Source: Olivibacter sp. SDN3 (lineage in GTDB: Bacteria > Bacteroidota > Bacteroidia > Sphingobacteriales > Sphingobacteriaceae). Taken from it: a stretch of 64,000 nucleotides of DNA. The stretch's first letter is position 1. The number at the start of each line of letters is the position of its first letter. Below are positions 10,961-57,349 of this stretch, one piece after another. The notes beneath the pieces were generated by a model. It was given only the letters and a program-made list of their open reading frames with translations. It did not search any database and was not told where the DNA came from. The stretch is taken from positions 248,001-312,000 of the forward strand of contig NZ_CP060497.1 in assembly GCF_014334135.1 (NCBI RefSeq). The letters run 5' to 3'. A program made the translations under genes and the position numbers.

Positions 10961-10974
10961 GAATAAGATATATT

Positions 10975-13900: not shown

Positions 13901-14139
13901 TGGCCATGATTGCCGGAATGGTGCCGATGGCCATTGGTCTGGGAGAAGGTGGTGACCAGACGTCGCCATTGGGTATTGCTGTAATCGGAGGGCTTATTTC
14001 TTCCACTATCAGCACCTTGGTCTTCCTACCGGCCATCTATGCAAGGATGATGGGCAGAAAGAGCTATCAAAGTCCGTCACTGCATCCGGGAGATAAGGAG
14101 AGCAGATATTATGAAACAGGCAATGAAAATCACTTTTAA
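10975..14139 (+). CDS. RND-family efflux pump inner membrane subunit
   Basis: A 1054-residue proton-driven transporter, normal RND size, with twelve expected helices in two halves. The first half has TM1 (PLAVVVFFITIVFFSWLTV), a large periplasmic loop, then the TM2-6 block with LAIGILVDESTVTIENI, whose Asp in TM4 fits the proton relay. The second half repeats this around MAVGVAVANAILLITN. Where AcrB-type pumps have a paired DD in TM4, this has a single D followed by ES. It pairs with TolC upstream and the adaptor 14 bases downstream. Substrate unknown; the neighbours (DoxX, TauE) do not suggest a metal. Confidence 0.92.
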   Translation: MIRLIALALRKPLAVVVFFITIVFFSWLTVRTMKIDIFPKMGLPTIYVAQPYGGLSPEQMEGFITSYYEYHFLYVTGVKFVESKSVQGASIIKIQFNEGTDMSQAMGEVVGYVNRSRAFMPPGTVPPFVTRFDAGSVPVGQLVFTSDSRSLGEIQDLALFKVRPMFSTLPGVSAPPPFGGNQKTVIIKVDPEKIRNYNLSPDEVVQALAASNSITPAGNIREGDKTLITSQNAVVENIKELENIPLKMGAGPSVYVRDVGNVELGADVTTGYALIDGKRSVYIPVTKRADAATWEVVQRVKEALPDMQAAVPEDIKVTYAFDQSGYVINSLNSLTTEGILGALLTGLMVLLFLRDIRGAFIVVITIPLALLSAVIFLKIFGQTLNVMTLGGLALAIGILVDESTVTIENIHHHQELGKSKAKAIWDACREIALPKLLILLCVIAVFVPALFMSGVPGAMFFPLSLAVGFAMIASFLLSQTLVPVFSHWLLKDRPPEGEAETAGGFNRFRQHYKDWLKSFVEKTSWISYIYLLLSFVLLAGGFWLLGTEIFPKTDAGQAQVRLRLPTGTRVERTEEATQKLLHLADSITKGGIEISSAFVGVQPSSYPVNLLHLWTSGPHESVTKIKLDREADMPIENFKEALRRAAKQVLPTATLSFEPGDMVEQVVNLGSSNPIEIAVMGKNLSQSQGVAAKLNAKLQEIDYLRDVQIATPLEYPGIKLNIDRIKAGQLGLTVGQISRSMVAATSSSRFTQPNYWLDKSTGTAYQVQVEYPQYRINSSAELGLVPVTSPSGTPIYLRDVTTSERITSPGEYDRINQQRFITITANIFKKDVGSAVKDVKKAIGSLGELPQGVKIMLRGQADLLEQTMGELEGGLLIAIVVIFLMLTVNFQSFRLSLAVLSVIPAVIAGSVLLLLLTGQTLNIQSYMGTIMAVGVAVANAILLITNGEQHRKQLSSPGFAVTGAANRLRPILMTSLAMIAGMVPMAIGLGEGGDQTSPLGIAVIGGLISSTISTLVFLPAIYARMMGRKSYQSPSLHPGDKESRYYETGNENHF

Positions 14140-14153
14140 TAAAAAATCTTACA

Positions 14154-15254
14154 ATGAAACTTTTGTATTCAACCATAGGGATTGCGTTATCCTCTTTTAC
14201 GTTTCTGGCGGGATGCCGGCATACTGATAACAGCAAAACTGAAACAACAGACCGCATGGACACTGTCGCGGTATTTACCCTGCAAAAAGATACCGTAAAT
14301 AAACAGCTTAGCTTTCCGGCAGAGCTGATCCCGCTTGAGCGGGCACAGATATTTGCCAAAGTGAGTGGTTATGTAAAAAACATAAAAGTGGATATTGGCG
14401 ATAGGGTAAGCAAGGGGCAGCTATTGGCTGTTCTGGAAGCTCCGGAAATGGTAGCCAATTATGCGCAAGCGAGCGCTGACATAGAAATGTCGCGTTCTAA
14501 GTACCGGGCGAGCCTGGACGCCTATAAACGCATCTTAAATGCTTCCCGTGTAGACGGTACGGTAGCTGCCGGTGAACTGGAAAAAGCAAAGAACCAGATG
14601 CAGGCCGATAGTGCTTCGTTAAATGCAAGCAGATCAAAAACAAATGCCTATGCGCAACTGAAAGATTACCTTATGATCCGCGCCCCTTTTTCGGGTATTG
14701 TCACCCAGCGTAATATTGATCCCGGCACCTTGATCGGAACAGATAATACGACACCTATGTTGGTCGTAGAGAATATTCATACACTCCGTCTAAGAGTTCC
14801 TATACCGGAGGCCTATACGGCAACTAACCTGGAAACACCCTCCATCGATTTTACAGTGGATGCCCAACCTGATGTAACATATAAGGCAAAACTAGCTCGC
14901 AAAGCCGGAGCCCTGAACCTCAGCAACAGAACTGAAATATGGGAATTTCTCTATCCCAATGGTGATAATCAGTTGAAATCCGGTATGTTGGCCACTGCTA
15001 TACTGAAATTAGGCAGAAAAGCATCCGGTTTTCAGGTACCGCCGGCAGCCGTTGTTACCAACCAGGAAAAACGTTTTGTTATCCGGCTCCGGAATGGAAA
15101 AGCGGAATGGGTAGATGTACGCAACGGCATCAGTATGGGGGATGGTATCGAAATTTTTGGTCCCCTTAGCGAGGGGGATACCCTGCTGGCCAGGGCAACC
15201 GATGAAATAAAACCCGGAACTGCCCTTGTTTCAAAACAGCTTAAACAAGAATAA
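14154..15254 (+). CDS. RND efflux periplasmic adaptor (membrane fusion protein), lipoprotein
   Basis: A 366-residue adaptor that bridges the RND pump and TolC. The signal sequence ends in a lipobox (SFTLAGC, Cys about 21), so it is likely lipid-anchored. The two lipoyl half-motifs frame a coiled-coil hairpin: VSGYVKNIKVDIGDRVSKGQ (about residues 80-99) and YLMIRAPFSGIVTQRNID (about 175-192). A beta-barrel domain follows. It is the last gene of the operon, closed by a hairpin at 15264-15289. Confidence 0.92.
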   Translation: MKLLYSTIGIALSSFTFLAGCRHTDNSKTETTDRMDTVAVFTLQKDTVNKQLSFPAELIPLERAQIFAKVSGYVKNIKVDIGDRVSKGQLLAVLEAPEMVANYAQASADIEMSRSKYRASLDAYKRILNASRVDGTVAAGELEKAKNQMQADSASLNASRSKTNAYAQLKDYLMIRAPFSGIVTQRNIDPGTLIGTDNTTPMLVVENIHTLRLRVPIPEAYTATNLETPSIDFTVDAQPDVTYKAKLARKAGALNLSNRTEIWEFLYPNGDNQLKSGMLATAILKLGRKASGFQVPPAAVVTNQEKRFVIRLRNGKAEWVDVRNGISMGDGIEIFGPLSEGDTLLARATDEIKPGTALVSKQLKQE

Positions 15255-33241: not shown

Positions 33242-34291
33242 TCAAGTTCTATTGCCCTGTTCTGCTTTATTCTCGATTTGCTTCTTTGACACTTCGATAG
33301 CTTGATGTAATTTTTCTTTTAGCAGGTTTTTACTGGGCAACTGAGTAAGGTATTCAGAAACCTTGATACCTGTGTTATCAAGCTGTAGAAGTTCCACTTG
33401 TTCGTGGTTACCTTCGGCGCAAAGAATCAATCCTAACGGTGTGTTTTCACCTTCTTCCATCTCATATCGCTCCAGCCATCTTAAATAGAGTTCCATCTGG
33501 CCTTTATACGCTGCTTTGAAGCGACCTAACTTCAGCTCGACAGCAATGAGTCTCTTAAGTTTTCGATGGTAAAACAGCAAATCCAACCTGAAGTCCTCTC
33601 CGTCGATAATCATACGCTTTTGACGCTCCACAAAACTAAATCCTTGACCCAACTCCAGAATAAACCGCTCAAGTTCCCTTAAAATGGCATCTTCGAGATG
33701 CTGTTCGCTATAGGTATCTTTCAGATTTAAGAAATCAAGAAGGTAGGGGTCCCTAAAAACTAAATCAGGACTCATTTTGTTTTCGTCTCTGAGCGCTTGT
33801 AATTCCTGTTTAATTAATTCGTCAGGCCGTTTGCTAATCGCTGTTCTTTCGTAAAGCATGCTACTTATTTTATCACGGAGGGTCTTTACGTTCCATCCTT
33901 CAGCTTTGCATAATTCCAAATAGAATTCCCGTTGAAGCTCGCTTTTCAATGGTATCAAAGCAATAAAATGTGTCCAACTCAATTGTCGTATTGCCGATAC
34001 GACAATTTGCTCATCCGAAAATACCGTAGCAAATTGAATCATTCGTCTAAGATTCTCGGAGAAATTATTTCCATATTGCTGTACCAATCTCTCTGAAAGT
34101 CCCACGATGATACGCTGACCATATGCAGCTCTTTTTTCTGTGAGTAAGTTTTCATTTACACGTTTCCCGATTCTCCAATAGAGATAGGTGAGTGTACTGT
34201 TTGCGCTCTGAGCAAGTTGTTGTTTGCTTTCCTCAATCAGCTTGGCTACGTCAACAAAAAGTTGCTTCTCGAATTTAATTGGTTGGTTCAT
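33242..34291 (-). CDS. DUF1016/YhcG-family PD-(D/E)XK nuclease-domain protein
   Basis: A 349-residue protein with the two-part YhcG architecture. The N-terminal helical domain (SANSTLTYLYWRIGKRVNEN) is followed by a C-terminal PD-(D/E)XK fold, where DFRLDLLFYHRKLKRLIAVE then LKLGRF supplies the Asp and the ExK (about residues 232-257). Such proteins occur near restriction-modification and mobile-element genes and are presumed DNA nucleases; targets are not established. Length is normal and motifs are intact. It is flanked by three XRE regulators upstream and a decayed small pair downstream on the same strand. Confidence 0.85.
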   Translation of the reverse strand: MNQPIKFEKQLFVDVAKLIEESKQQLAQSANSTLTYLYWRIGKRVNENLLTEKRAAYGQRIIVGLSERLVQQYGNNFSENLRRMIQFATVFSDEQIVVSAIRQLSWTHFIALIPLKSELQREFYLELCKAEGWNVKTLRDKISSMLYERTAISKRPDELIKQELQALRDENKMSPDLVFRDPYLLDFLNLKDTYSEQHLEDAILRELERFILELGQGFSFVERQKRMIIDGEDFRLDLLFYHRKLKRLIAVELKLGRFKAAYKGQMELYLRWLERYEMEEGENTPLGLILCAEGNHEQVELLQLDNTGIKVSEYLTQLPSKNLLKEKLHQAIEVSKKQIENKAEQGNRT

Positions 34292-34323: not shown

Positions 34324-34692
34324 TTAATTATTCCTCGTTTGCACCCGAGCTTGTAAGCGATTTGCATCTCGTTTACTTTTATCGACCTGTTCTTCTAAAT
34401 TCTTGATCTGATCAGAAGAGCAGCCTTGGTACATGTTAATAGTTCCTTGATTGCCGTCGTAATTATTAAAGACATTTGTATATGTCGATCTGTCTTGATA
34501 ACTGAGGACGTATTCAGGAGTAACTCCGAGAACTTCAGTCACTTCTTGTAAACGCTTCAAGGTTATGTCTGTGACATCATTTTCTATATTGGCATAAGCT
34601 TTTGTGGATAAACCCAGCGCTTTGGCCACATCTTCTTGTCTCATCCGACTATGCTTTTCCCTAATTTCTTTCAAAATTTCGCCTACTTTCAT
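34324..34692 (-). CDS. XRE-family regulator with NGNQGTI linker, paralogue 1
   Basis: A 122-residue protein. The N-terminal XRE helix-turn-helix runs RMRQEDVAKALGLSTKAYAN then IENDVTDITLKRLQEV (about residues 16-52). Then comes a linker YDGNQGTINMY (about 77-87) and a Lys/Gln-rich coiled coil to the end. The linker motif recurs in both neighbouring paralogues. The coiled coil suggests dimer or hetero-oligomer formation. It lies 32 bases upstream of the DUF1016 gene and may control it. Confidence 0.78.
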   Translation of the reverse strand: MKVGEILKEIREKHSRMRQEDVAKALGLSTKAYANIENDVTDITLKRLQEVTEVLGVTPEYVLSYQDRSTYTNVFNNYDGNQGTINMYQGCSSDQIKNLEEQVDKSKRDANRLQARVQTRNN

Positions 34693-34709
34693 GTCCTTAC
34701 TGTTTTTAA

Positions 34710-35099
34710 TTAAAACTCTATTTTATTCTCTTTAAGAAGCTCTTCAAGTAATTTAATCCTCTTCCTTTCACTTTCTATCAGCTCTTTCTGTAAATCATAT
34801 ATAATTCCTAGAGTAACACTATTACTCGCTTGATTGATTTTAATAGTACCCTGATTTCCATTATTATTATGGATTGTATTATAGAAATCTCTTTTCTTCT
34901 CTTTATAAGTTAAGATATATAGGGGCGTACACCCAAGAATATTGGCGATTTCTTCTAACCGATCTAGTGTAATATTCGCCATGTCATTTTCTATATTAGC
35001 ATAGGCTCGTGTAGTAATTTTGAGTTTTTCAGCAACATAAGATCTTTTTAAATTCTTTTCGAACTCCCTAATCTCTCTGATATTACTACCGATTTTCAT
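34710..35099 (-). CDS. XRE-family regulator with NGNQGTI linker, paralogue 2
   Basis: A 129-residue protein. The XRE domain (KRSYVAEKLKITTRAYANIE then NDMANITLDRLEEIANIL, about residues 18-55) is closely similar to paralogue 1. The NNNGNQGTIKI linker and a C-terminal coiled coil (DLQKELIESERKRIKLLEEL) ending KENKIEF follow. It is 17 bases upstream of paralogue 1 and 10 bases downstream of paralogue 3, so the three form one transcription unit. Function unknown. Confidence 0.78.
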   Translation of the reverse strand: MKIGSNIREIREFEKNLKRSYVAEKLKITTRAYANIENDMANITLDRLEEIANILGCTPLYILTYKEKKRDFYNTIHNNNGNQGTIKINQASNSVTLGIIYDLQKELIESERKRIKLLEELLKENKIEF

Positions 35100-35109
35100 G
35101 CTCTAATCG

Positions 35110-35490
35110 TTAAAAATCAAATTGTATATTATTTTCTAATAACAGTTTTTCAAGTCTAGGTATGCGCTTTACTTGCTCGAAATATAATTCTTTGTACGCT
35201 TTTCTTACTTCCTCCTGATCAACAGACTGGACGTTAACTATCGTTCCTTGATTTCCGTTATTGTTATTGAAGTAATTTCTTATTCCAAAAGGTGCGTCGT
35301 CTAACAAGATTAAGTCAACAATATTTACAGAAAGTCTATTTGCGATGGCCTCTACTACACTCCAAAGCACATCCCCTCCCGCTTCAATATCTTTGTATTC
35401 CTCTTCGGTGATTCCTATTTCGTCAGCCATAAATTTTGTTGTATATCCTTTTTTAGCTCTAATTTCTTGTATGTTATTCCCTATGTTCAT
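35110..35490 (-). CDS. XRE-like protein with NGNQGTI linker, paralogue 3
   Basis: 126 residues from the ATG at 35490 (MNIGNNIQEIRAKKGYTTKF); the frame is open 31 codons further upstream but through AT-rich leader. The HTH is more divergent (MADEIGITEEEYKDIEAGGD), while the NNNGNQGTIVNV linker and a C-terminal tail ending LLLENNIQFDF match paralogue 2 (LLKENKIEF). It is the first gene of the three-gene unit, so the promoter should lie in 35491-35617, opposite the small forward gene. Confidence 0.72.
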   Translation of the reverse strand: MNIGNNIQEIRAKKGYTTKFMADEIGITEEEYKDIEAGGDVLWSVVEAIANRLSVNIVDLILLDDAPFGIRNYFNNNNGNQGTIVNVQSVDQEEVRKAYKELYFEQVKRIPRLEKLLLENNIQFDF

Positions 35491-35617
35491 GATTTTGTAT
35501 TTTATCTTCAAATATAATAAACTTCCTTTAAAGTAAGTAATACTTCCTATATGAGAAGTACTTTTTTTTATATAAAGCACCATATCACTTTTCTTTGCAA
35601 ATACCTAACACAAGATT

Positions 35618-35851: not shown

Positions 35852-36042
35852 CCCTTTTCTCCTTCTTTCCATAAAGAAGTTCAACCTAATTTTTAACCAA
35901 ACCGTAATCACAGAAAATGAATTTAACGCTCATAAGGGGTTTGCTGTGCCCAAAAGGCGAGCTATCGGCTTCCGGCGATCGGCTATCAGCTAAATCCCGA
36001 TTCAAGAAAAGCAGTACTAATAAAAGAAATATCATCAATCTC

Positions 36043-36086
36043 CACACTATTGTCCGTCCTCATTTTTTGGGACGAACGACCGTGTG
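36043..36086. repeat. REP-like imperfect palindrome upstream of susC
   Basis: CACACTATTGTCCGTCC (36043-36059) pairs with GGACGAACGACCGTGTG (36070-36086) at 13 of 17 positions around a 10-base loop. It lies in the 314-base gap between the small forward gene and the susC start, in a stretch that also holds short repeats of CTATCGGC/CGATCGGC (35960-35995). It may be a dispersed palindromic repeat or an RNA leader hairpin. Confidence 0.45.
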
Positions 36087-36165
36087 TAGGGACCAACGAC
36101 ATAAGATCATTGCGAATCACACTTTAAAGGTCGCCAATAGATACCCATATAAAACAGGCATAAAG

Positions 36166-39100
36166 ATGGGTTTGAACGGAGTGGTCTTGCGCGCCCCTAA
36201 ACCTTACGCCTTTTACCTTATAACCTTAAAGATTTTGTTCTGTGTTTGTTTGGCACACGCCCGGCAGTCCTCCTTCCCGGAGGCTGCCACCGGCGTGGCT
36301 TTACGGCAATATGTACTTAAGGGCAAAGTGTTATCAGTAGTTAATAATGATCCACTTACGGGATCAACTATAAGTATTGTTGGCAATAACATTTCTACGA
36401 AGACGGAACCAAATGGAAATTTTATTATCAAGACTGCTTTGGCAAAAGGAACATTACGTATATCACATATGGGCTATAGAAGCAAGTCCCTACTTTTCTC
36501 AATTAGCGAAGATGATGAATATATCGTCACTCTTTCTCCTGAAGAAAATGTGCTCGATGAAATTCAAGTTATAGGTTACGGAGAAACCAGCAAACGTTTT
36601 AATACGGGAAGCGTTTCTTCCATCTCCGCAAAAGAAATTGACCAACAACCCGTAACAAATGTATTATCGGCCTTGTCCGGCAGGATGCCCGGTGTGTTCG
36701 TACAGACAACAAACGGGTTACCTGGTGGAAATATAAACATTCAGATCAGGGGTAAGGGTTCAATTGCCGCGGGAACAAGTCCACTATATATAATCGACGG
36801 GGTGCCTTTCAATTCCTCAGTTGGCAATTTAACGTCAATCAGTGTCCTGTCTACCAGTGCGATAAATGGTCTTGCCAGTCCTTTGAATGCCATCAACCCA
36901 AACGACATTGAAAGCATTACTATTCTAAAAGATGCTGACGCTACTGCTATTTATGGAAGTCGCGGAAGTAACGGGGTGGTATTGATTACTACAAAAAAGG
37001 GGAAGCAGGGAAATACGAAAATAGCGATCGACATATCAAATGCCCTGAACCAAGTGGCAAACCTTCCCAAATTACTAAACATGGAAGAATATCGGACTAT
37101 TCGGGAGGAAGCCTTTACAAACGATGGAAGATCGCCTTCATCGGATCCGAATTCAGCTGATTATGCGCCGGAGCTGACCGTTTGGAACGACACGCTAAAT
37201 CGAAATTGGCCGGAATTTTTACTCGGCGGTACGGGCAGTATTACCAACCTATCTGCAAGAGTATCAGGAGGGAACGCTCAAACCCAATTTACCGTTAACG
37301 GAAACTATCGAGCGGAAAGCACCTATCTTCCGGGCGACAACAAATACGCAAGAGGAAGTTTGGCAACCAACATTCAGCATCAATCCGCTAATCAAAAATT
37401 TCAGGTGAATTTATCCAATTTTTTCACGCTGGATAATAACAGATTGGTCAATCCCTCCTCCAATACATACTTCAATTTAATGCTCCCTCCGAATTATCCC
37501 ATCTATAACGAGGACGGCAGTTTCAACTGGCACAGTTCGAACGTGGTTGCGGAGATGAATGCCTATTCCAAGTCGAAGAATGACAATTTTTTAACCAATA
37601 TTCAGCTTAAGTATAACCTTGACGAAGCGATTAATATTGCAGTAAGTGCCGGTTATAACAGGATCAATTTTGTGCAGCGACAGGTTTTTCCAGGTATCGC
37701 GCTGTACCCCGGGTCAATCAATTATACCAATTTTGGTAATAATGGCAATAACTCGTTGATCATAGAGCCTCAGATCAATTATACGAAACGCTTCGGTTCG
37801 TCCAATTTAACTCTCATGCTGGGCGGAACATATCAGAACAACAATTCGTCAGGTGAATTTATCAGAGCCAATAATTTCAGTACAGCCAGTTTAATGGAGA
37901 ACCTAGCCTCAGCAACAGATTATTTGCTTTCCAACAGTTTCTCACAATACAGATATGCCTCGGTATTCGGTCGGGCAACTTTCAGTCTCAAAGAAAAGTA
38001 CGTTGTGAACGGTGCCATACGGAGAGATGCATCTTCCAGATTCGGTCCCAACAACAAAATCGGAACATTCGGCGCCGTAGGGATTGCATGGCTGTTCAGC
38101 GAAGAAAGGTTTTTAAAATCCAGCGGCATTTTAAGCCATGGAAAGCTCCGTGCCAGTTTCGGCACGACAGGAAATGACCAAATAAGCGACTACCAATATC
38201 TTTCTACCTACGGCAATTCCAGCTACCAATACGAAGGCGTTGCTGCACTCGCGCCCCTGCGTATCGCCAATTCGAATTTCCGTTGGGAAAAGACCAAAAA
38301 AATAGAGATGGCCGTTGAAGTGGGGCTGTTCAAGGATAGGCTGTTAATAAATGCCAACCGATACATGAATACAAGTAAGAGCCAATTAGTTGCGTACACG
38401 ATACCTTCTATGACGGGTTTCACCAGTTATCAGGCAAACCTGCCCGCTAAAGTAAGCAATTCCGGATGGGAGGTAGAAGTATCGGCCAATATAATAGCAA
38501 CCGATCGGTTTAGGTGGACATCCACTTTTAACATTACTATTCCCAAGACTGTACTTAAGGAATTTGACAATTTAGAAAATTCAAGTTATGCAAGAACTTT
38601 GGTGATAGATGAAGATATTTCAAGAATTTATGGATACAAGTTTACCGGTTTGGATGAAAAAGGAAAACCTTTATTTGAAACTATTTCAGGTGAGCTGACA
38701 TCGCTACCTTCCTCCGCTACAGATGCGTTTTTCACAATTGGGAAGCAAACACCGGATTATTATGGAGGTATCGGGAGTAATTTATCATTCGGCAAATGGA
38801 CGGTCGATATCTTCGGACAGTTTGCCAAGCAAATGGCTATGGGAGGTTTGAATTATACACCGGGATCGTTTTATAATAGCTTTTCAACCGTACTGGAAAG
38901 ATGGACACCTGAAAATACCGTCACAGATATGCCTGCTGCTTCCACCAGTAATAACTCGCGGTTCAGGCAATCTTCAGGTAATTTCTTTGATGCGTCGTAT
39001 TTCAGGTTGAAAACGATTGGTTGTTCCTACGACTTCGGCCGGATCTTTTTTAACAAAATCGATAACCTGACAATTTATGCGCAAGCACAGAACCTGTTTA

Positions 39101-39216
39101 CATTATGGGATAAGAGATCGGCGCTATTAGATCCTGAGTCAGGAGCCTTAACAACGTCCGCAAACAACTTACCACCCACGCGTACGCTTTTGCTCGGGAT
39201 ACGGGCTTCATTTTAA
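36166..39216 (+). CDS. susC: SusC/RagA-family TonB-linked outer membrane transporter
   Basis: 1016 residues from the ATG at 36166. The open frame extends 83 codons upstream, but that part reads through palindromic repeats and lacks signal-peptide character, whereas the chosen start gives MGLNGVVLRAPKPYAFYLIT followed by a hydrophobic core ending near AHARQ. A CarboxypepD-reg-like domain follows (VLKGKVLSVVNNDPLTGSTI), then the SusC plug with GSIAAGTSPLYIIDGVPFNS and DADATAIYGSRGSNGVVLIT, then the barrel ending LLLGIRASF. It imports a ligand captured by SusD. No TonB-box substrate clue and no glycan enzymes nearby. A REP-like palindrome lies inside the code just after the signal peptide. Confidence 0.9.
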   Translation: MGLNGVVLRAPKPYAFYLITLKILFCVCLAHARQSSFPEAATGVALRQYVLKGKVLSVVNNDPLTGSTISIVGNNISTKTEPNGNFIIKTALAKGTLRISHMGYRSKSLLFSISEDDEYIVTLSPEENVLDEIQVIGYGETSKRFNTGSVSSISAKEIDQQPVTNVLSALSGRMPGVFVQTTNGLPGGNINIQIRGKGSIAAGTSPLYIIDGVPFNSSVGNLTSISVLSTSAINGLASPLNAINPNDIESITILKDADATAIYGSRGSNGVVLITTKKGKQGNTKIAIDISNALNQVANLPKLLNMEEYRTIREEAFTNDGRSPSSDPNSADYAPELTVWNDTLNRNWPEFLLGGTGSITNLSARVSGGNAQTQFTVNGNYRAESTYLPGDNKYARGSLATNIQHQSANQKFQVNLSNFFTLDNNRLVNPSSNTYFNLMLPPNYPIYNEDGSFNWHSSNVVAEMNAYSKSKNDNFLTNIQLKYNLDEAINIAVSAGYNRINFVQRQVFPGIALYPGSINYTNFGNNGNNSLIIEPQINYTKRFGSSNLTLMLGGTYQNNNSSGEFIRANNFSTASLMENLASATDYLLSNSFSQYRYASVFGRATFSLKEKYVVNGAIRRDASSRFGPNNKIGTFGAVGIAWLFSEERFLKSSGILSHGKLRASFGTTGNDQISDYQYLSTYGNSSYQYEGVAALAPLRIANSNFRWEKTKKIEMAVEVGLFKDRLLINANRYMNTSKSQLVAYTIPSMTGFTSYQANLPAKVSNSGWEVEVSANIIATDRFRWTSTFNITIPKTVLKEFDNLENSSYARTLVIDEDISRIYGYKFTGLDEKGKPLFETISGELTSLPSSATDAFFTIGKQTPDYYGGIGSNLSFGKWTVDIFGQFAKQMAMGGLNYTPGSFYNSFSTVLERWTPENTVTDMPAASTSNNSRFRQSSGNFFDASYFRLKTIGCSYDFGRIFFNKIDNLTIYAQAQNLFTLWDKRSALLDPESGALTTSANNLPPTRTLLLGIRASF
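36256..36297. repeat. GC-rich palindrome within the susC 5' coding region
   Basis: CACGCCCGGCAGTCCTCC (36256-36273) is the imperfect inverse of GGAGGCTGCCACCGGCGTG (36279-36297). It encodes the segment around ARQSSFPEAATGVA between signal peptide and first domain. It is far more GC-rich than its surroundings and resembles a dispersed repeat that landed in frame. Confidence 0.5.
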
Positions 39217-39225
39217 CCTCTTGAT

Positions 39226-40578
39226 ATGAAAGCAAACATAAAATTTATCCTATCATTATTTATCATTGTCTTCTCCGCATGCGAGAGATGGGTGGAAATA
39301 AATACACCCGAGAACCAGCTTACCACAGACAAGGTATTTGCTGACACGGCTACGCTGAACGGGGCCGTCGCAAACATGTATGATCAGTTTAACCGTTCTA
39401 TAGACGTCTCTTACAATAAGTACATGGGTCTGTACACTGATGAGCTCCAATATCAGGGATCAAACCAGGAGGTGCTGGAATTTTATAATGGAAATATTCT
39501 TGCAGCCAATTCTATGATATTGAACATATGGAGCAGGCTTTATGCTGTTATTTACCAAGCGAATGACATCATTGAGCAGCTCACAAATTCTTCCTCTATT
39601 CCTTCGCAGGTTTCCACGAAAGCGATCGGGGAAGCAAAATTTATTAGGGCATTTGCCTATTATTACCTGGCCAATACGTTTGGGGATGTCCCTCTTATCC
39701 TCACTACCGATGTTACCCTGAATGCATCGAGTGCAAGAACCGAATCGTCAGAGATCACTAATCAGATAGTTGACGACCTCACCGAATCAAAGGTGTTACT
39801 TTCGACCAGTCCTGACGGACCACTTTCGCGAACAAGGGCAAATCGATGGGCTGCCACGGCACTGCTATCGAGACTGCTTATACAACAGGAAAAGTGGGAA
39901 GAAGCTTACTCTGCTGCCAGCGAAGTGATCAATTCGCAATATTTTACTCCTTTATCAGATCTGTCTGTTGTTTTCCGATCCGGCAGTAGAGAAACCATTT
40001 TCCAATTCTGGACACAGAACGGGTTCATTCAGGATGCGACGAACCTGATAGCACTTTCCGGGGTACCGGCATATTCCTTGTCCAGCGGTTTAGTGCAGGC
40101 TTTCGAAGAGGAAGATCAAAGGAAAGTTAACTGGACGGGAACGATTACAGCAAACGGAACAACCTACTATTATTCTTACAAATACAAAAATCGTTCGTCA
40201 GGCAGCACCTCTTTTCCCGAGTACCTCATTGCCCTTCGTTGCTCGGAACAATATTTAATAAGAGCCGAAGCGGAACTACACCTAGGAAATACCGCGGGTG
40301 CAATAGACGATATTAATACAATACGGGTACGGGCCGGACTTTCTTCACTTCCCGCTGATTTAAACAGCCAAGAATGCTTCAAGGCGCTGGAACAAGAAAA
40401 GAGAGTAGAGATGTTTATGGAATGGGGCTATAGGTATATCGACTTAAAGCGTACAGAGCGCATTTATAATGTGATGAGCAAATATAAGCCAAATTGGACC
40501 GAACATTCTGATCTTTTACCCATACCTCAGCGTGAAATCAATGTCAATCAAAATTTAACTCAAAATCCCGGATACTAA
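39226..40578 (+). CDS. susD: SusD/RagB-family outer membrane lipoprotein
   Basis: A 450-residue ligand-capture lid protein. Lipoprotein signal: IKFILSLFIIVFSACERW, Cys about 18. N-terminal SusD motif TDKVFADTATLNGAVANMYD (about residues 34-53). The TPR-type helices contain AIGEAKFIRAFAYYYLANTF (about 132-151), the hallmark of the family. C-terminal block: ALEQEKRVEMFMEWGYRYID then LLPIPQREINVNQNLTQNPG. It starts 9 bases after susC. The last base of its stop is the first base of the next start codon (TAATG), so translation is coupled to the TlpA gene. Confidence 0.93.
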   Translation: MKANIKFILSLFIIVFSACERWVEINTPENQLTTDKVFADTATLNGAVANMYDQFNRSIDVSYNKYMGLYTDELQYQGSNQEVLEFYNGNILAANSMILNIWSRLYAVIYQANDIIEQLTNSSSIPSQVSTKAIGEAKFIRAFAYYYLANTFGDVPLILTTDVTLNASSARTESSEITNQIVDDLTESKVLLSTSPDGPLSRTRANRWAATALLSRLLIQQEKWEEAYSAASEVINSQYFTPLSDLSVVFRSGSRETIFQFWTQNGFIQDATNLIALSGVPAYSLSSGLVQAFEEEDQRKVNWTGTITANGTTYYYSYKYKNRSSGSTSFPEYLIALRCSEQYLIRAEAELHLGNTAGAIDDINTIRVRAGLSSLPADLNSQECFKALEQEKRVEMFMEWGYRYIDLKRTERIYNVMSKYKPNWTEHSDLLPIPQREINVNQNLTQNPGY

Positions 40579-41924
40579 TGAAAAAACTAACATTGATAAT
40601 CATGCTTTCCTTGTCTCTGAATAATCTGTTACATGCGCAGAATAGAGCAGTGCCTAGCCTGAAAATCGGGGACAAGGTTCCACAGATCGCTCTTAAGGGC
40701 TTTTTAGGCAAAAGGGAAGCAAAAGATCTGAAAGAATTTTACAAGGGGAAGGTATTGATTATTAATTTTTGGGCGTCATGGTGTGTACCGTGCCTAAAGG
40801 AATTGCCCATATTGGATTCGCTGGCAAAGGTGAATGCAGATAAACTAAACGTTATTTCCGTTACTTATGAATCCAGGGACCATACAGTATCGTTTCTGGA
40901 AAAACACCCTGATTTAAAACTGAAGAGTGTAGCGGTTCTTCCGGGAGATTCCGTATTACACCAAATTTTCAGTCATCGGATCATTCCGCATAACGTTTTG
41001 ATCGATAGTTCAGGAACAGTACGGAATATTACCGGTTCGGAAGGGATAACCCAATCAAATATAGATCTGCTTATTAGGGGCAAATCATCGCTGACCAAAA
41101 ACAAAAATGATGCGATTGGTTTCAACTTTAATGAAACGTTCCATAAAGGCGATTCAAATTTTATTTCAAGGTCTATTTTGACAAGTTACATGGAAGGAAT
41201 TCCGGGAGGGCTTTCTTATCGGAGATCTTGGAATCCAAAAAAGCGTGAGATAATTCGTTTCTTTTCCTTTAATGTTTCGCTCTCTCATTTACTTTGGTCC
41301 GTAGTCGGTATGGAAAAATCCATTCGGAACTACTACCACCTTATGCGGATAGAAACCAAGGATTCGACCAGATACTTCTGGCCGAGTGAGTGCCCGGAAT
41401 CGTTTAACCGATCGAAGTATAAAACCAAGGCAAATTGGATGAAAGATAATCTATACTGTTACGAACTGACACTCCCAAAACCATTTCAGGATACCGCTTT
41501 TTTCGACTTTATGTTGAATGATCTGAAACGGGTATTCAAATTTGATATTGAGAAAAGACGGGAAAAGATATTGTGCACAAGCATTTACGTAAAGGAGAGC
41601 GGGTTACTGAAAGCATCACAGGCCGATACTTCTTATATTCAGGTGAATTCAGATGGGCTAACGGCAAAACGTGTTTCTCCAGTAGAATTATTCCATTACA
41701 TAAACGAAAAGGTAAAGCCAAATCTCAATAGCATACCTGCTGACCCGCCTTTTATCGATAAAACAGAACTAAAATTTCCGATTGATGTGGCTTTAAGATT
41801 TGACAATGGTCGTCTTCCAAGCTACGAAGAGATTAAAGGTATGTTAAAAAAGAGATATGGTTTTAGTACGAAATTGGAAAAACATAAATATCCAATAACC
41901 ATTATAAGAGATATGGAGCCCTAA
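40578..41924 (+). CDS. TlpA-family periplasmic thioredoxin with long C-terminal domain
   Basis: 448 residues. Signal peptide MKKLTLIIMLSLSLNNLLHA. The thioredoxin domain (about 25-165) has the active site FWASWCVPCLKELPILD (CVPC, about 69-72) and the cis-Pro loop HRIIPHNVLID. The following roughly 280 residues are not recognised; similar extensions occur on thioredoxins next to SusCD pairs in Bacteroidota. It probably reduces or isomerises disulfides of a secreted partner. It is co-translated with susD, and the convergent MauE-like and DUF6520 genes add to a redox theme. Confidence 0.85.
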   Translation: MKKLTLIIMLSLSLNNLLHAQNRAVPSLKIGDKVPQIALKGFLGKREAKDLKEFYKGKVLIINFWASWCVPCLKELPILDSLAKVNADKLNVISVTYESRDHTVSFLEKHPDLKLKSVAVLPGDSVLHQIFSHRIIPHNVLIDSSGTVRNITGSEGITQSNIDLLIRGKSSLTKNKNDAIGFNFNETFHKGDSNFISRSILTSYMEGIPGGLSYRRSWNPKKREIIRFFSFNVSLSHLLWSVVGMEKSIRNYYHLMRIETKDSTRYFWPSECPESFNRSKYKTKANWMKDNLYCYELTLPKPFQDTAFFDFMLNDLKRVFKFDIEKRREKILCTSIYVKESGLLKASQADTSYIQVNSDGLTAKRVSPVELFHYINEKVKPNLNSIPADPPFIDKTELKFPIDVALRFDNGRLPSYEEIKGMLKKRYGFSTKLEKHKYPITIIRDMEP

Positions 41925-41937
41925 GACTCCATATCTC
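41908..41937. terminator. Bidirectional terminator overlapping the TlpA stop
   Basis: GAGATATGGAG (41908-41918) and CTCCATATCTC (41927-41937) form a perfect 11-base stem with an 8-base loop that contains the TAA stop (41922-41924). It lies between convergent genes, ending 9 bases before the DUF6520 stop. Confidence 0.65.
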
Positions 41938-41946
41938 AAAGTAGTG

Positions 41947-42234
41947 TTATAGGCCAAAATTCAATGTGGTGGCATCTGGCCCCGGGCCACTAACCTTCTC
42001 GCCGTTAGCGCAGACATTGGCGCCATTTTCGCAGCCGTAATGATCGATCGCTTCCTGAGTGGTTGCGTTTTGCAAAGACGAGCTGGGATTTTCAGGTGCA
42101 ATGCTTGTACTTTCCCAATCATACCTGGTCTCCTGAGCATTTGGTTGGTTCGCGAGTTCTGTTGCTACCGCAATTGAACTTCCCAACAAGAATGCTCCTA
42201 AAAGGATTTTTGATTTTGAACTTAACTTTTTCAT
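41947..42234 (-). CDS. DUF6520-like small secreted protein
   Basis: 95 residues. Signal peptide-like start (MKKLSSKSKILLGAFLLGSS then IAVATELA). The mature part is short and acidic with two Cys in YGCENGANVCANG (about residues 67 and 74) and a flexible SGPGPD tail. It resembles the DUF6520 family of small exported Bacteroidota proteins, usually encoded next to MauE-like membrane proteins, as here (34 bases downstream of that gene). The two Cys could form a disulfide handled by the neighbouring MauE and TlpA proteins. Function unknown. Confidence 0.6.
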   Translation of the reverse strand: MKKLSSKSKILLGAFLLGSSIAVATELANQPNAQETRYDWESTSIAPENPSSSLQNATTQEAIDHYGCENGANVCANGEKVSGPGPDATTLNFGL

Positions 42235-42268
42235 AATTTTAAAGTTTTAGAGTGAAAAAATATGTGAA

Positions 42269-42805
42269 TTATGGTTTGTTATTTTTGTTTGGATATTTTC
42301 CTCTATGCCAATAAATCGACAGTAGTAAAAGCACAATTACAGAAGCGTTGAAAAAAAGGTGCTGCTCCCAACCCATTCGGGATAAAATCCCGCCACACGT
42401 ACAAGGTAGGGTGATTCCGGTCCTGACGGAAACAACTTTCATCCACGTAATATAAATTTCGAATAAAACCATCAGCACAAATGAGGCTTTATAGGCCAAC
42501 AACCTTGTTTTTTCCTTATAGAGCATTACCACCAGCGCCAATTCGATCCATGGAAGAACCCTGCCGATAACCGGTGCCATAGTTTTCATAAAAGGAACGG
42601 GAGCAAGCCGCATTTGAAAGACAAATTTTTCATAACCCAGCAGTTTGCTTACAGCGGTATACGAAAATAAAATGATGACAAATACAACTGTGCCAATCAT
42701 AAGTATTTCTTTCCAGTTCCATGAGCGAACGGCTCCCCATAAGTGCCGGAACTTGCCATTAAGTTTGCATAATAGATTATTTTTTTGAAATATTGCCACT
42801 TTCAT
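42269..42805 (-). CDS. MauE/DoxX-like redox-associated membrane protein
   Basis: 178 residues from the ATG at 42805 (MKVAIFQKNN); the frame is open to 42955, but the earlier start would add a basic soluble extension atypical of the family. Four membrane helices are visible: EILMIGTVVFVIILFSYTAV, MKTMAPVIGRVLPWIELALV, LAYKASFVLMVLFEIYITWM and FFNASVIVLLLLSIYW. A CTCGG motif in LPCTCGGIL faces the envelope side. MauE-type proteins help form disulfides in periplasmic partners. It is adjacent to DUF6520 and convergent with the TlpA gene. Confidence 0.75.
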   Translation of the reverse strand: MKVAIFQKNNLLCKLNGKFRHLWGAVRSWNWKEILMIGTVVFVIILFSYTAVSKLLGYEKFVFQMRLAPVPFMKTMAPVIGRVLPWIELALVVMLYKEKTRLLAYKASFVLMVLFEIYITWMKVVSVRTGITLPCTCGGILSRMGWEQHLFFNASVIVLLLLSIYWHRGKYPNKNNKP

Positions 42806-43104: not shown

Positions 43105-43680
43105 TTATTTGATAATCTTGTACAGATATCTCCTGTCAATTTGTAGGTATTGGGCCTGTTGTTCAACGGTCAATTTTCTGGCAAGATCAGGATATTCCAT
43201 AAGAAAGTAGTTATATCGGTCTGTTGCATTTTTAATTCGCAGCATGATCTCTCTTCCGGCACCTTCCACTACGGCCTCTTCATAAATTTCCAGTAGCATT
43301 CTGTACATATTGATGTTGTTACGCGCAATGGCATCTGCGCGTAAAAGGTTAAGGGCGTATCCGTCTGTATCATTTAAAACCTGAATAAGTTCCTCTTTTT
43401 TTGTTCCGGATAGAAAGCCATTACCCGGCACTATAAAACCTTTGTCGATTATCCATAAGCAGTAGTCTCCACTGGATTTAGAAACCACACCTCTTACTAG
43501 ACCACCTGTGATATAATAAAGATATGCAGTAGAAATACCTGTAGGATAGGAAATCACCCAGCTTCGTTTAAATGAAATTGGGGAGAAGAGATCCTCTAAC
43601 AACATGATGGTCTTTTCGTTAGCTGTTTTTAGGGATTGTAGTCTTTGTCGTAATTCCACCATAGCCTGAATTTTATCCAT
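43105..43680 (-). CDS. Crp/Fnr-like transcriptional regulator
   Basis: 191 residues. A degenerate cyclic-nucleotide-binding beta-roll (about 28-110) contains AYLYYITGGLVRGVVSKSSG and LWIIDKGFIVPGNGFL. It is followed by the long dimer helix and a short C-terminal HTH (ARKLTVEQQAQYLQIDRRYL). The nucleotide-contact residues of true CRP are not evident, so it is probably ligand-independent or senses something else. It is encoded directly after the mobilisation operon but beyond a terminator hairpin. Confidence 0.72.
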   Translation of the reverse strand: MDKIQAMVELRQRLQSLKTANEKTIMLLEDLFSPISFKRSWVISYPTGISTAYLYYITGGLVRGVVSKSSGDYCLWIIDKGFIVPGNGFLSGTKKEELIQVLNDTDGYALNLLRADAIARNNINMYRMLLEIYEEAVVEGAGREIMLRIKNATDRYNYFLMEYPDLARKLTVEQQAQYLQIDRRYLYKIIK

Positions 43681-54838: not shown

Positions 54839-57349
54839 CTAAAATCTTACCAATAAGCCTCCTCCCCAACGGTACCGTGAGTCATATCCTGCTGAAAGAG
54901 ATATCTTTTTCGCTAGCATATATTCAAGGTCCAAATGGTATTCTTTATCTGTATTTGCACGCCAGTTAAAGAACATCCTGGGAAGAAGCCATTGTTCACC
55001 TTCAAGCTCGCCCCGCACACGTCCCTTCATGTTTACACTTACATCCGCTTCAATAAAAAATGGTAACGTATACCTGAAACCCAGTACAGGCAACTCATAA
55101 TCCTGTTCAAAAGTTTGCCTTCCGTTAAATACGTTGTAGTACTTTTGCTGTAACCCGCGAAAACCGACATAAGGTCTTAACCAATCGTTCAGGTACCGTT
55201 CATATGACACCTCTGCCTCGTACTGACCGTCGTAGTTTGCATTTGCTTCCACACGAAAAGCATTTCGGGAGTTAAAGTAGTTGGCCTGTAATTCACTCAT
55301 ATGGCTTTTGGCTGCAAGGCTTCCATAAAAGAACCATTGCCGATCTTCCTTGAATAAGTTCTTCAGAGGCGCATCGGCTAGTGCGGTATCACGTTCGCTT
55401 CCTTCATAATGGACAATGCGTGCCATACCGCTCATCATGTGGTACAGGATATGACAATGAAAGAACCAGTCCTTCTCCTCGTCCGCGGAAAACTCAATGG
55501 TTACGCTGGTCATTGGCGGAACGTCTACGGTATGTTTAAGAGGGGAATACTCTCCATTTTTGTTCAGCACCCTGAAGAAGTGCCCATGCAAATGCATAGG
55601 ATGATTCATCATCGTGGTGTTCTCCAAAGTGAACTGTACAACTTCTCCTTTTTTTATGTTGATCATATCAGCTTCGGAAAGCACTTTTTTATTGATCGAC
55701 CACACGTAACGGTACATATTGCCCGTCAGTGTAAGATGATAATTCTTTTTTGGACGTGCGGGATCAAAAGTGGTCTTTTCCAAAGCTTTCAACATGTCAT
55801 AATTAAACACCACCTCTTCCGTTGAATCCGGCCCCATCTGGCGACCGGTCATTTCGCCGTGCATAGAATGATCTATTGCTTTTTCACTTGGCTTACTTTC
55901 TTCCATATGCCGCCTATGTGCCATATGATCGGCGCTGTCCGGTTCCATCTTCATTTTTCCCACGTCGTTACTCTCCTTCTTGTGTCCGCGATGATCCTGT
56001 TTTTGTAGGGAATCCTTCATCTTTATCCCATCATCCATCTTCATGTCATGACCGGAATGCTGATTATCGGTGGGGGGCTGTTTTTTCCGGGAAACTTTTT
56101 TTGGAGCCTTGTTCTTTTCTTCCATACCGCCCATGTCCATCCCTTCCATATCCATGTTTTCCATCGTTCCGTGGTCCATACCGCTCATTTTCATTCGTCC
56201 CGGAAAATTCACCGTCATATCCATCATCATTTTATCCATATTCCATACATCGGGTCTGGAAATGTTTCTTGCCATTACCTTCTCACCGGAACCGATAAAA
56301 ACGGAAGTGGAGCCGGAAACATCCTGGGGAGTTGCCCGCAATTCATAAGCACCATCAGATGGCACGGTAATAAGGAAATCGTACGTTTCTGCCGTTCCGA
56401 TCAATATCTTATCAATGGATATGGGAGTAACGTCCAAGCCATCTGCGGATATAAGGCGTATTTTTCCACCTCCATAATTCAGGTAAAAATAAGTGGAAGA
56501 GGAGCCGTTGATCACTCTTACCCGAAGACGATCACCCGGCTTATATTGCGACAGATCAATGGAACGTTTTCCGTTTACCAGAAAGGCATCGTAATAGACA
56601 TCAGAAAGATCCATTGCAGGCATCCTTGTCCATGCACTTTTTACCCTCTGAAAATAAGACCCGTGTGAAATCAGTTTATCAAGGCTTTGCGCATACCCCT
56701 TTTTGATGGTATACCACTCACTTGCGGGATCGTTACGCCGGAGTGTGCGGTGAACTTCCGACGGATTTTCATTGGTCCAGTCTGAGAGCAATAAAACAAC
56801 CTCATGGTCAACGGGATGTGTTTTCTTTCTGGGATGTATTAGGATAGGCCCGTATAGCCCACTCTGTTCCTGTAGCATCGTGTGGGAGTGGTACCAATAG
56901 GTACCGCTCTGTTTTAAAGGGAAGACAAACTTCCGGACACCTCCCGGTTTTATGGGTGGAGTGGTAAGATAAGGAACACCGTCTTCAATATTGGGTAATA
57001 ATAGCCCGTGCCAGTGCGTGGAGGTCTCGTGATGATGCAGCCTATTATGAACATAAATAACAGCTGTATCGCCCTCGGTGAACTCAAGTGTCGGTGCCGG
57101 AATCTGCCCGTTTACGGCAATTCCCTTTACTTCTTTGTTGTTTGCGTAATTGACCGTTGTATCGCTCACATAAAGATGATAGGTAACCGTTTTTCCCGGA
57201 CCTTCCGCCATTTCCATTTTATGGGGGGGCAGATTGTCAACCGCGTTTTTATTAGGATGCGTATGCTGCGCCGAGACCATAGTAGCAAATGCTAACGGAA
57301 AGGCTACCAATATTATTTTCATTATATTTTTACTTTTCATCATCTTCAT
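54839..57349 (-). CDS. Multicopper oxidase (PcoA/CopA-like) fused to a C-terminal outer-membrane-type barrel domain
   Basis: 836 residues, far longer than usual oxidases. A signal peptide ends near MVSAQ. Cupredoxin copper sites are HWHG (about 110), YWYHSHTM (about 152), HPMHLHGHFF (about 580) and HCHILYH (about 630). Between domains 2 and 3 lies a Met/His/Asp-rich insert (about 395-500, MDHGTMENMDMEGMDMGG and similar) suited to copper binding. From about 665 the protein changes to aromatic strands ending GGGLLVRF, resembling a PcoB/CopB outer membrane domain. It probably oxidises Cu(I) in the periplasm. The CPH-type ATPase gene stop is 8 bases upstream of its start. Confidence 0.88.
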   Translation of the reverse strand: MKMMKSKNIMKIILVAFPLAFATMVSAQHTHPNKNAVDNLPPHKMEMAEGPGKTVTYHLYVSDTTVNYANNKEVKGIAVNGQIPAPTLEFTEGDTAVIYVHNRLHHHETSTHWHGLLLPNIEDGVPYLTTPPIKPGGVRKFVFPLKQSGTYWYHSHTMLQEQSGLYGPILIHPRKKTHPVDHEVVLLLSDWTNENPSEVHRTLRRNDPASEWYTIKKGYAQSLDKLISHGSYFQRVKSAWTRMPAMDLSDVYYDAFLVNGKRSIDLSQYKPGDRLRVRVINGSSSTYFYLNYGGGKIRLISADGLDVTPISIDKILIGTAETYDFLITVPSDGAYELRATPQDVSGSTSVFIGSGEKVMARNISRPDVWNMDKMMMDMTVNFPGRMKMSGMDHGTMENMDMEGMDMGGMEEKNKAPKKVSRKKQPPTDNQHSGHDMKMDDGIKMKDSLQKQDHRGHKKESNDVGKMKMEPDSADHMAHRRHMEESKPSEKAIDHSMHGEMTGRQMGPDSTEEVVFNYDMLKALEKTTFDPARPKKNYHLTLTGNMYRYVWSINKKVLSEADMINIKKGEVVQFTLENTTMMNHPMHLHGHFFRVLNKNGEYSPLKHTVDVPPMTSVTIEFSADEEKDWFFHCHILYHMMSGMARIVHYEGSERDTALADAPLKNLFKEDRQWFFYGSLAAKSHMSELQANYFNSRNAFRVEANANYDGQYEAEVSYERYLNDWLRPYVGFRGLQQKYYNVFNGRQTFEQDYELPVLGFRYTLPFFIEADVSVNMKGRVRGELEGEQWLLPRMFFNWRANTDKEYHLDLEYMLAKKISLSAGYDSRYRWGGGLLVRF

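Follow-up and report, generated by a model that had tools for sequence, protein, structure and literature searches.

SusCD importers are main gates of Bacteroidota. Together with TonB, they carry material inward over the outer membrane, and their cargo is usually guessed from adjoining glycan enzymes. What is carried by a SusCD pair that has no glycan enzyme beside it? This question is raised by a five-gene cassette in a stretch of 64,000 nucleotides from Olivibacter sp. SDN3 (positions 248,001 to 312,000 of contig NZ_CP060497.1; the whole stretch is referred to as the window), where genes for SusC, SusD and a TlpA-type thioredoxin face genes for a MauE-like membrane protein and a small protein with two cysteines (Cys). 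The reading favoured here, with a probability of roughly 0.45, is that the small protein is a dedicated partner of its own SusCD, most likely its ligand or cargo, and that TlpA, or a peptidase in other cassettes, dismantles it. Sequence comparison shows that many Bacteroidota pair an outer-membrane importer with a small, apparently exported two-Cys protein whose sequence varies widely and in step with that importer, which suggests that each such importer is supplied by its cell with a partner of its own, perhaps its cargo. The features of the window cassette were as follows.

36166..39216, plus strand: SusC/RagA-type TonB-dependent outer-membrane transporter (TIGR04056, plug PF07715)
39226..40578, plus strand: SusD surface lipoprotein (PF14322, PF07980; lipobox-like FSAC read by eye)
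40578..41924, plus strand: TlpA/ResA-type thioredoxin with WCVPC and a DUF3738-like C-terminal domain (PF08534 above cut-off)
41908..41937, strandless: terminator-like inverted repeat with 11-bp perfect arms and an 8-base loop, spanning the TlpA end and the convergent gap
41947..42234, minus strand: small two-Cys protein (DUF6520-like) of 95 amino acids (aa), with a signal-peptide-like N-terminus and Cys at C68 and C75
42269..42805, minus strand: MauE/DoxX-type membrane protein with a CTC motif (PF07291, E 5.4e-22)

The relationship of the small protein to the other genes was evaluated in 92 cassettes with all five genes. A TlpA-domain protein was required, which left cassettes with an S9 peptidase or a Met-zincin and two-gene cassettes outside the set; duplicates (the same last 300 SusC residues), L057 and L060 were dropped. 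In each small protein, the signal part (median 24 aa) was separated from the mature part (72 aa), and partial rank correlations of pairwise distances were calculated with 400 permutations, which ignore kinship. The correlation of the signal part with MauE given SusC was 0.293, a value reached in none of the 400 permutations, and that with SusC given MauE was -0.006 (221/400). The mature part gave 0.218 with SusC given MauE (0/400) and 0.073 with MauE given SusC (10/400). The signal part tracked MauE, and the mature part tracked SusC/SusD. In the 47 cassettes with TlpA first in the operon, the mature part tracked SusC (0.378) and not MauE (0.006), though MauE was its neighbour. Where TlpA was last, the mature part had a higher value with SusD (0.158) than with the intervening TlpA (0.092). 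The first-pass annotation, made from the letters of the window, had put forward the small protein as possible cargo or ligand, and the tracking of SusC/SusD by the mature part lends support to that suggestion.

The signal and mature parts also changed separately in natural mosaics. The noise level of the mature part, obtained from shuffled sequences, had a mean of 0.07, with 99.9% at 0.206. For the pair L138/L143, the likeness was 0.92 for MauE, 0.88 for the signal part, 0.09 for the mature part and 0.54 for SusC; the corresponding values for L114/L115 were 0.87, 0.97, 0.08 and 0.40. A weaker case was L065/L077 (0.84, 0.58, 0.12 and 0.64), and the members of each of the latter two pairs were two places in one genome. 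Among L130, L138, L139 and L143, from four genomes of the window's genus, MauE and the signal part were kept, SusCD differed and the mature part was at noise. At the DNA level, MauE was 0.88-0.93 identical over all positions in the three pairs; in the order L138/L143, L114/L115 and L065/L077, the signal part was 0.90, 0.87 and 0.74 identical and the mature part 0.55, 0.68 and 0.58, the last three values being inflated by gapped alignment. Mosaics of the reverse kind were L088/L108 (SusC 0.97, MauE 0.57, mature part 0.98) and L121/L206 (SusC 0.84, MauE 0.45, mature part 0.83). Five further near relatives of L121 had kept both MauE (0.82-0.90) and the small protein (0.87-0.90). In all five pairs with a SusC likeness of at least 0.84, the mature part reached at least 0.83.

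The co-occurrence of the five genes was examined from several starting points. TlpA-domain matches were found in 46 of the 121 genomes of the family, and 62 loci were sampled from the top of a longer match list (L057, overlapping L051, was excluded). MauE was present in 39 of these SusCD-TlpA loci and absent in 23, some of which end near the cassette. Behind MauE, a small open reading frame (ORF) with a signal-like N-terminus and at least two Cys stood in 39/39. In 15 of the 23 loci without MauE, a small gene, read by eye, still stood at the operon end; L101 had no visible signal part, and L062 had more than two Cys. The small protein was the steadier partner of SusCD-TlpA than MauE. Furthermore, 40 loci with the short form of MauE were taken in E-value order, omitting places inside already fetched loci of the TlpA-domain sample, and convergent SusC, SusD and TlpA were found in 39, the fortieth (L136) stopping at a contig end. 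For six of them (L114, L123, L132, L133, L142 and L145) a TlpA-domain match about 5-6 kb away had already been listed, and without these the count was 33/34. As far as examined, pairs of MauE and the small gene were hence not mostly found away from SusCD-TlpA, in agreement with the first-pass proposal. The small gene was separate in 36 of the 40 loci (overlapping the MauE end in L112), fused in frame to MauE in three (L117:9357-10127, L141:9379-10182 and L146:9677-10507) and beyond reach in L136; TlpA was last in the operon in 22 and first in 17.

Loci with the long form of MauE served as control. The long form (370-465 aa) was recognised in 18 of 20 such loci, and SusC with SusD was found in 0/18; one lone SusC-like gene lay on the same strand. 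The rule for the small ORF, for which the control additionally required C-x5..9-C, held behind short MauE in 35/40 and 39/39 loci, behind long MauE in 0/18, and behind 33/427 other ORFs (at least 150 aa) of the same loci. The 39/40 of the MauE sample and the 0/18 of this control ruled out a chance neighbourhood. A small gene was also present in 17/20 loci of a SusD sample, which is not independent because it was picked by similarity to the L121 SusD. Some records overlapped between sets (L206/L256, apparently one record; also L066/L151, L063/L159 and L118/L155). A search with the window's small protein returned three more copies at two places in its own genome. Both places (L009 and L010) were full cassettes with the same convergent layout, with one small gene in L009 and two in tandem in L010; the genome also has two further, diverged cassettes (L091 and L130). 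The grouping in the window is therefore not due to chance. A large expansion was seen in G019, a 5.1-Mb genome with 22 MauE and 17 TlpA-domain matches.

Across the phylum, named genomes were scanned with a 12-row MauE alignment; at least 591 stretches were confirmed, and 80 loci were kept, in which the small ORF was assigned by rule alone. The genera were Pedobacter, Mucilaginibacter, Chitinophaga, Niastella, Pontibacter, Dyadobacter, Flavobacterium, Aequorivita, Galbibacter, Draconibacterium and others. Convergent SusC and SusD were found in 63/80, and part of the operon was found in eight of the remaining 17, several of them at contig ends. The third gene in the 63 loci was TlpA in 30, an S9 prolyl oligopeptidase in 20, a DUF4953/DUF5117 Met-zincin in four and none detected in nine, with peptidase classes assigned by Pfam for four prototypes and by phmmer similarity for the remainder. 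These three are enzymes that would each dismantle a disulfide-closed peptide. Their occurrence in the same place beside SusCD is the best hint that the thing carried may be such a peptide. The description of the system as redox-linked in the first-pass annotation covers only part of it: MauE was absent from 23/62 SusCD-TlpA loci, and S9 or Met-zincin replaces TlpA elsewhere in the phylum.

The small protein was highly variable in sequence. In an alignment of 75 homologues, from which L108 (a near copy of L088) was omitted and ten spurious small ORFs had earlier been removed by eye, the two Cys were the only invariant columns, and the mean column identity was 14%. The mature part contained two Cys in 72 of 76 sequences and four in the other 4, and the spacing in the two-Cys members was 6 (33), 7 (31), 8 (7) or 9 (1) residues. 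The mature part was acidic (mean charge -5.1; negative in 78/92). Signal peptides were read from sequence by eye. The AlphaFold2 model of the window protein had block means of 80-92 over residues 31-90, with the order strand-strand-helix-strand-strand; Foldseek gave no PDB match with an E of 0.001 or lower, and a PDB sequence search with the small-protein profile gave E 0.14 at best. NCBIfam families were rejected as names for the protein, each matching two or fewer of the 75 members and all weakly. The DUF6520 label given earlier fits the window protein by homology and not by its own score: the Pfam model (PF20130) matched 37/75 homologues at E up to 0.1 (best E 1.9e-13), whereas it failed to match the window's own protein at a maximum E of 10, so that membership was not established, and nothing over its cut-off was found anywhere in the window's genome. 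Moreover, the model finds only 17/296 genomes of the phylum; hence, current annotation under-counts the small-protein family.

For the other genes, family scores and frames agreed with the description given in the first-pass annotation, in which SusC, SusD and TlpA (TAATG, CVPC) face MauE and a 95-residue two-Cys protein. SusC scored 639.5 bits for TIGR04056 against a curated cut-off of 368.25; its frame is open over 35917-39216, and the start at 36166 is likelier, as the N-terminus there is signal-peptide-like. SusD scored 94.7 bits for PF07980 (cut-off 23.1) and 95 bits for PF14322 (cut-off 27), and its gene is joined to that of TlpA by the TAATG overlap. The thioredoxin fold of TlpA, with its CxxC, was supported by PF08534 over its cut-off and by PDB matches that include ResA and TlpA; all 50 among the PDB matches listed were thioredoxin-fold proteins. 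The Cys pair of WCVPC was invariant in 41 homologues, the AlphaFold2 model had a mean pLDDT (predicted local distance difference test) of 87.0, and the MauD model matched at E 3.3e-6. The C-terminal domain of TlpA, previously called unknown, appears DUF3738-like: the L010 paralogue matches DUF3738 (PF12543) at E 1.1e-5 (26.1 bits; cut-off 22), and no match was obtained for this domain in the TlpA of the window or of L009. A relationship of this domain to SAKe6AR was not accepted as homology (best PDB sequence match E 0.0026 over 45 residues only).

MauE scored 78.9 bits for PF07291 (cut-off 27), and its ORF is open to 42955; both Cys of its CxC and one Asn were invariant in 50 homologues. A conserved ORF of about 80 aa lies directly upstream of MauE in four related loci (L138:9388-9633; the others are 57-90% identical to it) and may belong to the export module as an additional part. 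In 24/80 phylum loci, the MauE frame was 493-551 aa long, with an extra C-terminal stretch of about 350 aa. This stretch was fused to MauE at L208:9959-11455, L218:9953-11482 and L180:9971-11545 and was a separate 350-aa gene at L201:10417-11466 (Chitinophaga); no Pfam match was obtained for the stretch itself in any of the five genes scanned (three fusions, two split genes). A 356-aa gene judged similar by eye lies between the small gene and TlpA at L112:8246-9316.

The TlpA gene and the small gene of the window end tail to tail, with 22 bp between them, and conservation of this gap had been proposed as a check of the system. The gap proved to be conserved. Over the 92 cassettes, the stop-to-stop distance had a median of 60 bp and was at most 100 bp in 71, and a perfect stem of at least 8 pairs was present in 74. 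The mean stem was 10.9 pairs, compared with 4.9 in shuffles, of which 126/920 reached the value of their own locus. A generic terminator scan listed no site at 41908..41937.

Based on these sequence patterns, the favoured reading may be set out as a cycle. The small protein would leave by the Sec route, and MauE, with or without TlpA, would set the disulfide that closes its 6-9-residue loop. It would then bind its own SusCD from the cell surface and be carried back through it, after which TlpA would reduce it or a peptidase would cut it. TlpA/ResA-type CxPC thioredoxins are mostly reductants, and the disulfides of methylamine dehydrogenase are formed with the help of MauE and the TlpA-like MauD. 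The role of such a partner might be scavenging of something bound, kin or density sensing, or competition, and a scavenging or signalling peptide seems likelier than a toxin. A bolder form of the same reading, regarded as tentative and clearly the less probable of the two, is a phylum-wide private import code. The one-disulfide protein secreted by each cassette would be hypervariable, recognised and taken up again by its own SusCD alone, and then destroyed by reduction or proteolysis; the mature part and SusC/SusD would be swapped as a block against a constant MauE and signal peptide through recombination at the signal boundary. Bacteroidota would thereby have a lock-and-key type of system for recognition, signalling or carrier scavenging.

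Several observations weigh against the partner reading and its bolder form. The tracking effects were modest, and kinship was not removed in the permutations. With TlpA as the last gene (45 cassettes), tracking by the mature part was alike for MauE (0.169) and SusC (0.149). Part of the pattern is expected from linkage alone, as the signal end adjoins MauE and the mature end adjoins the operon, and because TlpA-last cassettes track both genes alike, part of the tracking is explained by linkage. No stretch stood out when SusC/SusD regions tied to the mature part were sought. The reverse swaps were two independent pairs only, both TlpA-first, and the drop in DNA identity at the signal/mature boundary was sharp only in L138/L143 and softer in L114/L115 and L065/L077. 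In nine pairs with SusC 0.60-0.70 alike, the mature part ranged from 0.12 to 0.50; the small protein thus changes faster than the importer, and weak constraint could mimic variability. No small gene was seen in 8 of the 23 SusCD-TlpA loci without MauE. In 9/80 phylum loci, SusC, SusD, TlpA, S9 and Met-zincin were all undetected on the convergent side; in five of these (L198, L201, L202, L207 and L221), MauE was followed by a gene of 350-369 aa, and a DUF6520-like gene was present in L201, L202 and L221. No signal for crossing the outer membrane was seen in the small protein by eye, no tool search having been made, and the MauE fusions also fit a tethered small protein.

The last two points lead to the alternative that survives best, which we consider rather unlikely. 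The small protein would not leave the periplasm, where it would serve its SusCD as regulator, plug or assembly factor; MauE and TlpA would switch its redox form and so gate the importer, and the cargo would be something else. A signal that by eye is of the Sec type only, the fusions to MauE in three loci, an invariant Cys pair next to two thiol proteins with invariant Cys pairs, and the tracking of SusC/SusD by the mature part all agree with such a regulator. It leaves unexplained, however, why S9 or Met-zincin can take the place of TlpA, why MauE can be absent and why a periplasmic subunit should be so variable.

Less probable again is an ordinary importer of foreign peptides, in which SusCD would import, TlpA or the peptidase would break the peptide down, and the small protein would be a weakly constrained helper in redox or folding, loosely linked to the rest. 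RagAB-type SusCD pairs are known peptide importers, and the peptidases found as third gene and the strong divergence of the mature part are as expected for such a system. A loosely linked helper, however, is hard to reconcile with a small gene often retained without MauE (15/23), with the narrow Cys spacing and with near-identical small proteins behind exchanged MauE genes in L088/L108 and L121/L206.

It is quite improbable that the small protein is a bacteriocin-like weapon entering rivals via SusC, with the SusCD and TlpA or peptidase of the producer acting as a protective sink. A two-Cys protein that is hypervariable, apparently exported and matched with an importer would suit this role, as would several cassettes per genome, some of which adjoin mobilisation genes. 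However, no convincing toxin fold or family match was obtained, no immunity-type gene was recognised (no family-aimed search was made), and the 22 MauE matches in one genome would imply many weapons. Chance neighbours moved together by mobile elements can practically be dismissed: the window copy and L010 adjoin TraG/MobB genes, whereas TraG or MobB homologues occur in only 15/183 loci (these two included), the same convergent layout recurs across many genera of the phylum, and the long-form control gave 0/18.

The surroundings of the cassette in the window were as follows.

33242-34291: YhcG/DUF1016 PDDEXK nuclease directly left of the cassette, with strong PADLOC PDC-S02 matches; candidate defence gene
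34324-35583: three small helix-turn-helix (HTH)-like proteins in series, with the common motif GNQGTI after the HTH
43105..43680, minus strand: probable Crp-like regulator upstream of MauE (neighbourhood, not core), with a similar gene in the same place in L010
43768-47066: TraG-type coupling protein and MobB relaxase
54839-57349: CopA-type multicopper oxidase (TIGR01480 382 bits, under the cut-off of 479)

The Crp-like gene had no Pfam match of its own. In L010, the TraG and MobB genes are at 10970-14277, a Crp-like gene again adjoins, and HTH genes of similar size (832-1583) lie on the same side of the cassette as in the window; L009 adjoins AraC-like genes. With TraG/MobB beside two cassettes of this genome, the cassette therefore also travels with mobilisable elements, and the notion of a mobile-element passenger holds for these two copies and not in general (15/183 loci). 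PADLOC gave no match for the four proteins scanned, i.e., the small protein, TlpA, MauE and the Crp-like gene (SusC and SusD were outside the scan), and an anti-phage defence system was thus unsupported by these four core or near-core proteins. In 21/40 loci of the MauE sample, a Crp- or AraC-like gene preceded MauE on its strand at a distance of no more than 3 kb. A survey of 113 flanking proteins of 180-900 aa from 39 of these loci, not counting proteins at the ends of loci, gave 77 Pfam families, the commonest being regulators (cyclic-nucleotide-binding, AraC, LytTR, FecR and sigma-70). No polysaccharide enzyme was among the 25 most frequent families, and no glycan-degrading enzyme was found in the ten window genes scanned. 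This agrees with the first-pass annotation, in which the SusCD pair had no glycan enzyme, and a polysaccharide utilisation locus was unsupported.

The cassettes form a large class of SusCD for which a candidate partner can be read from the cassette itself. Should the small protein prove to be cargo or ligand, many 'orphan' pairs of SusCD would become testable at once, and the phylum would gain a system of recognition or scavenging that is based on peptides and encodes its own specificity; if it is a regulator only, a new way of SusCD control would be found. In a literature search of titles and abstract openings, with most subscription papers outside its coverage, no paper was found that names DUF6520 or the SusCD-TlpA-MauE grouping, and none was found on NVEALA; the papers listed included a review of TonB-dependent uptake. 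The parts are known, and what appears undescribed is their combination with a matched hypervariable protein in one cassette.

Four known systems may be compared with it. Proteins of the Pfam family DUF6520 likewise begin with a signal-like N-terminus and carry Cys in their mature part; the window's family differs in having two Cys in nearly all members and in being missed by the Pfam model in the window's genome. MauD/MauE of methylamine utilisation similarly places a MauE homologue and a TlpA-like thioredoxin near a small Cys protein. The cassettes differ in that no subunit of methylamine dehydrogenase was recognised in them, that the two-Cys variable protein is the presumed substrate and that TlpA belongs to the importer operon. 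SusCD/RagAB importers have the same SusC plug and SusD families in the same SusC-SusD order, whereas the cassette usually adds a matched variable small protein and has no glycan enzyme family among the commonest flanking ones. Finally, the logic of a private ligand with a matched receptor is the same as in HasA/HasR and pyoverdine/FpvA; no known metallophore or haemophore parts were recognised in the present cassettes, in which SusD and TlpA or a peptidase take part.

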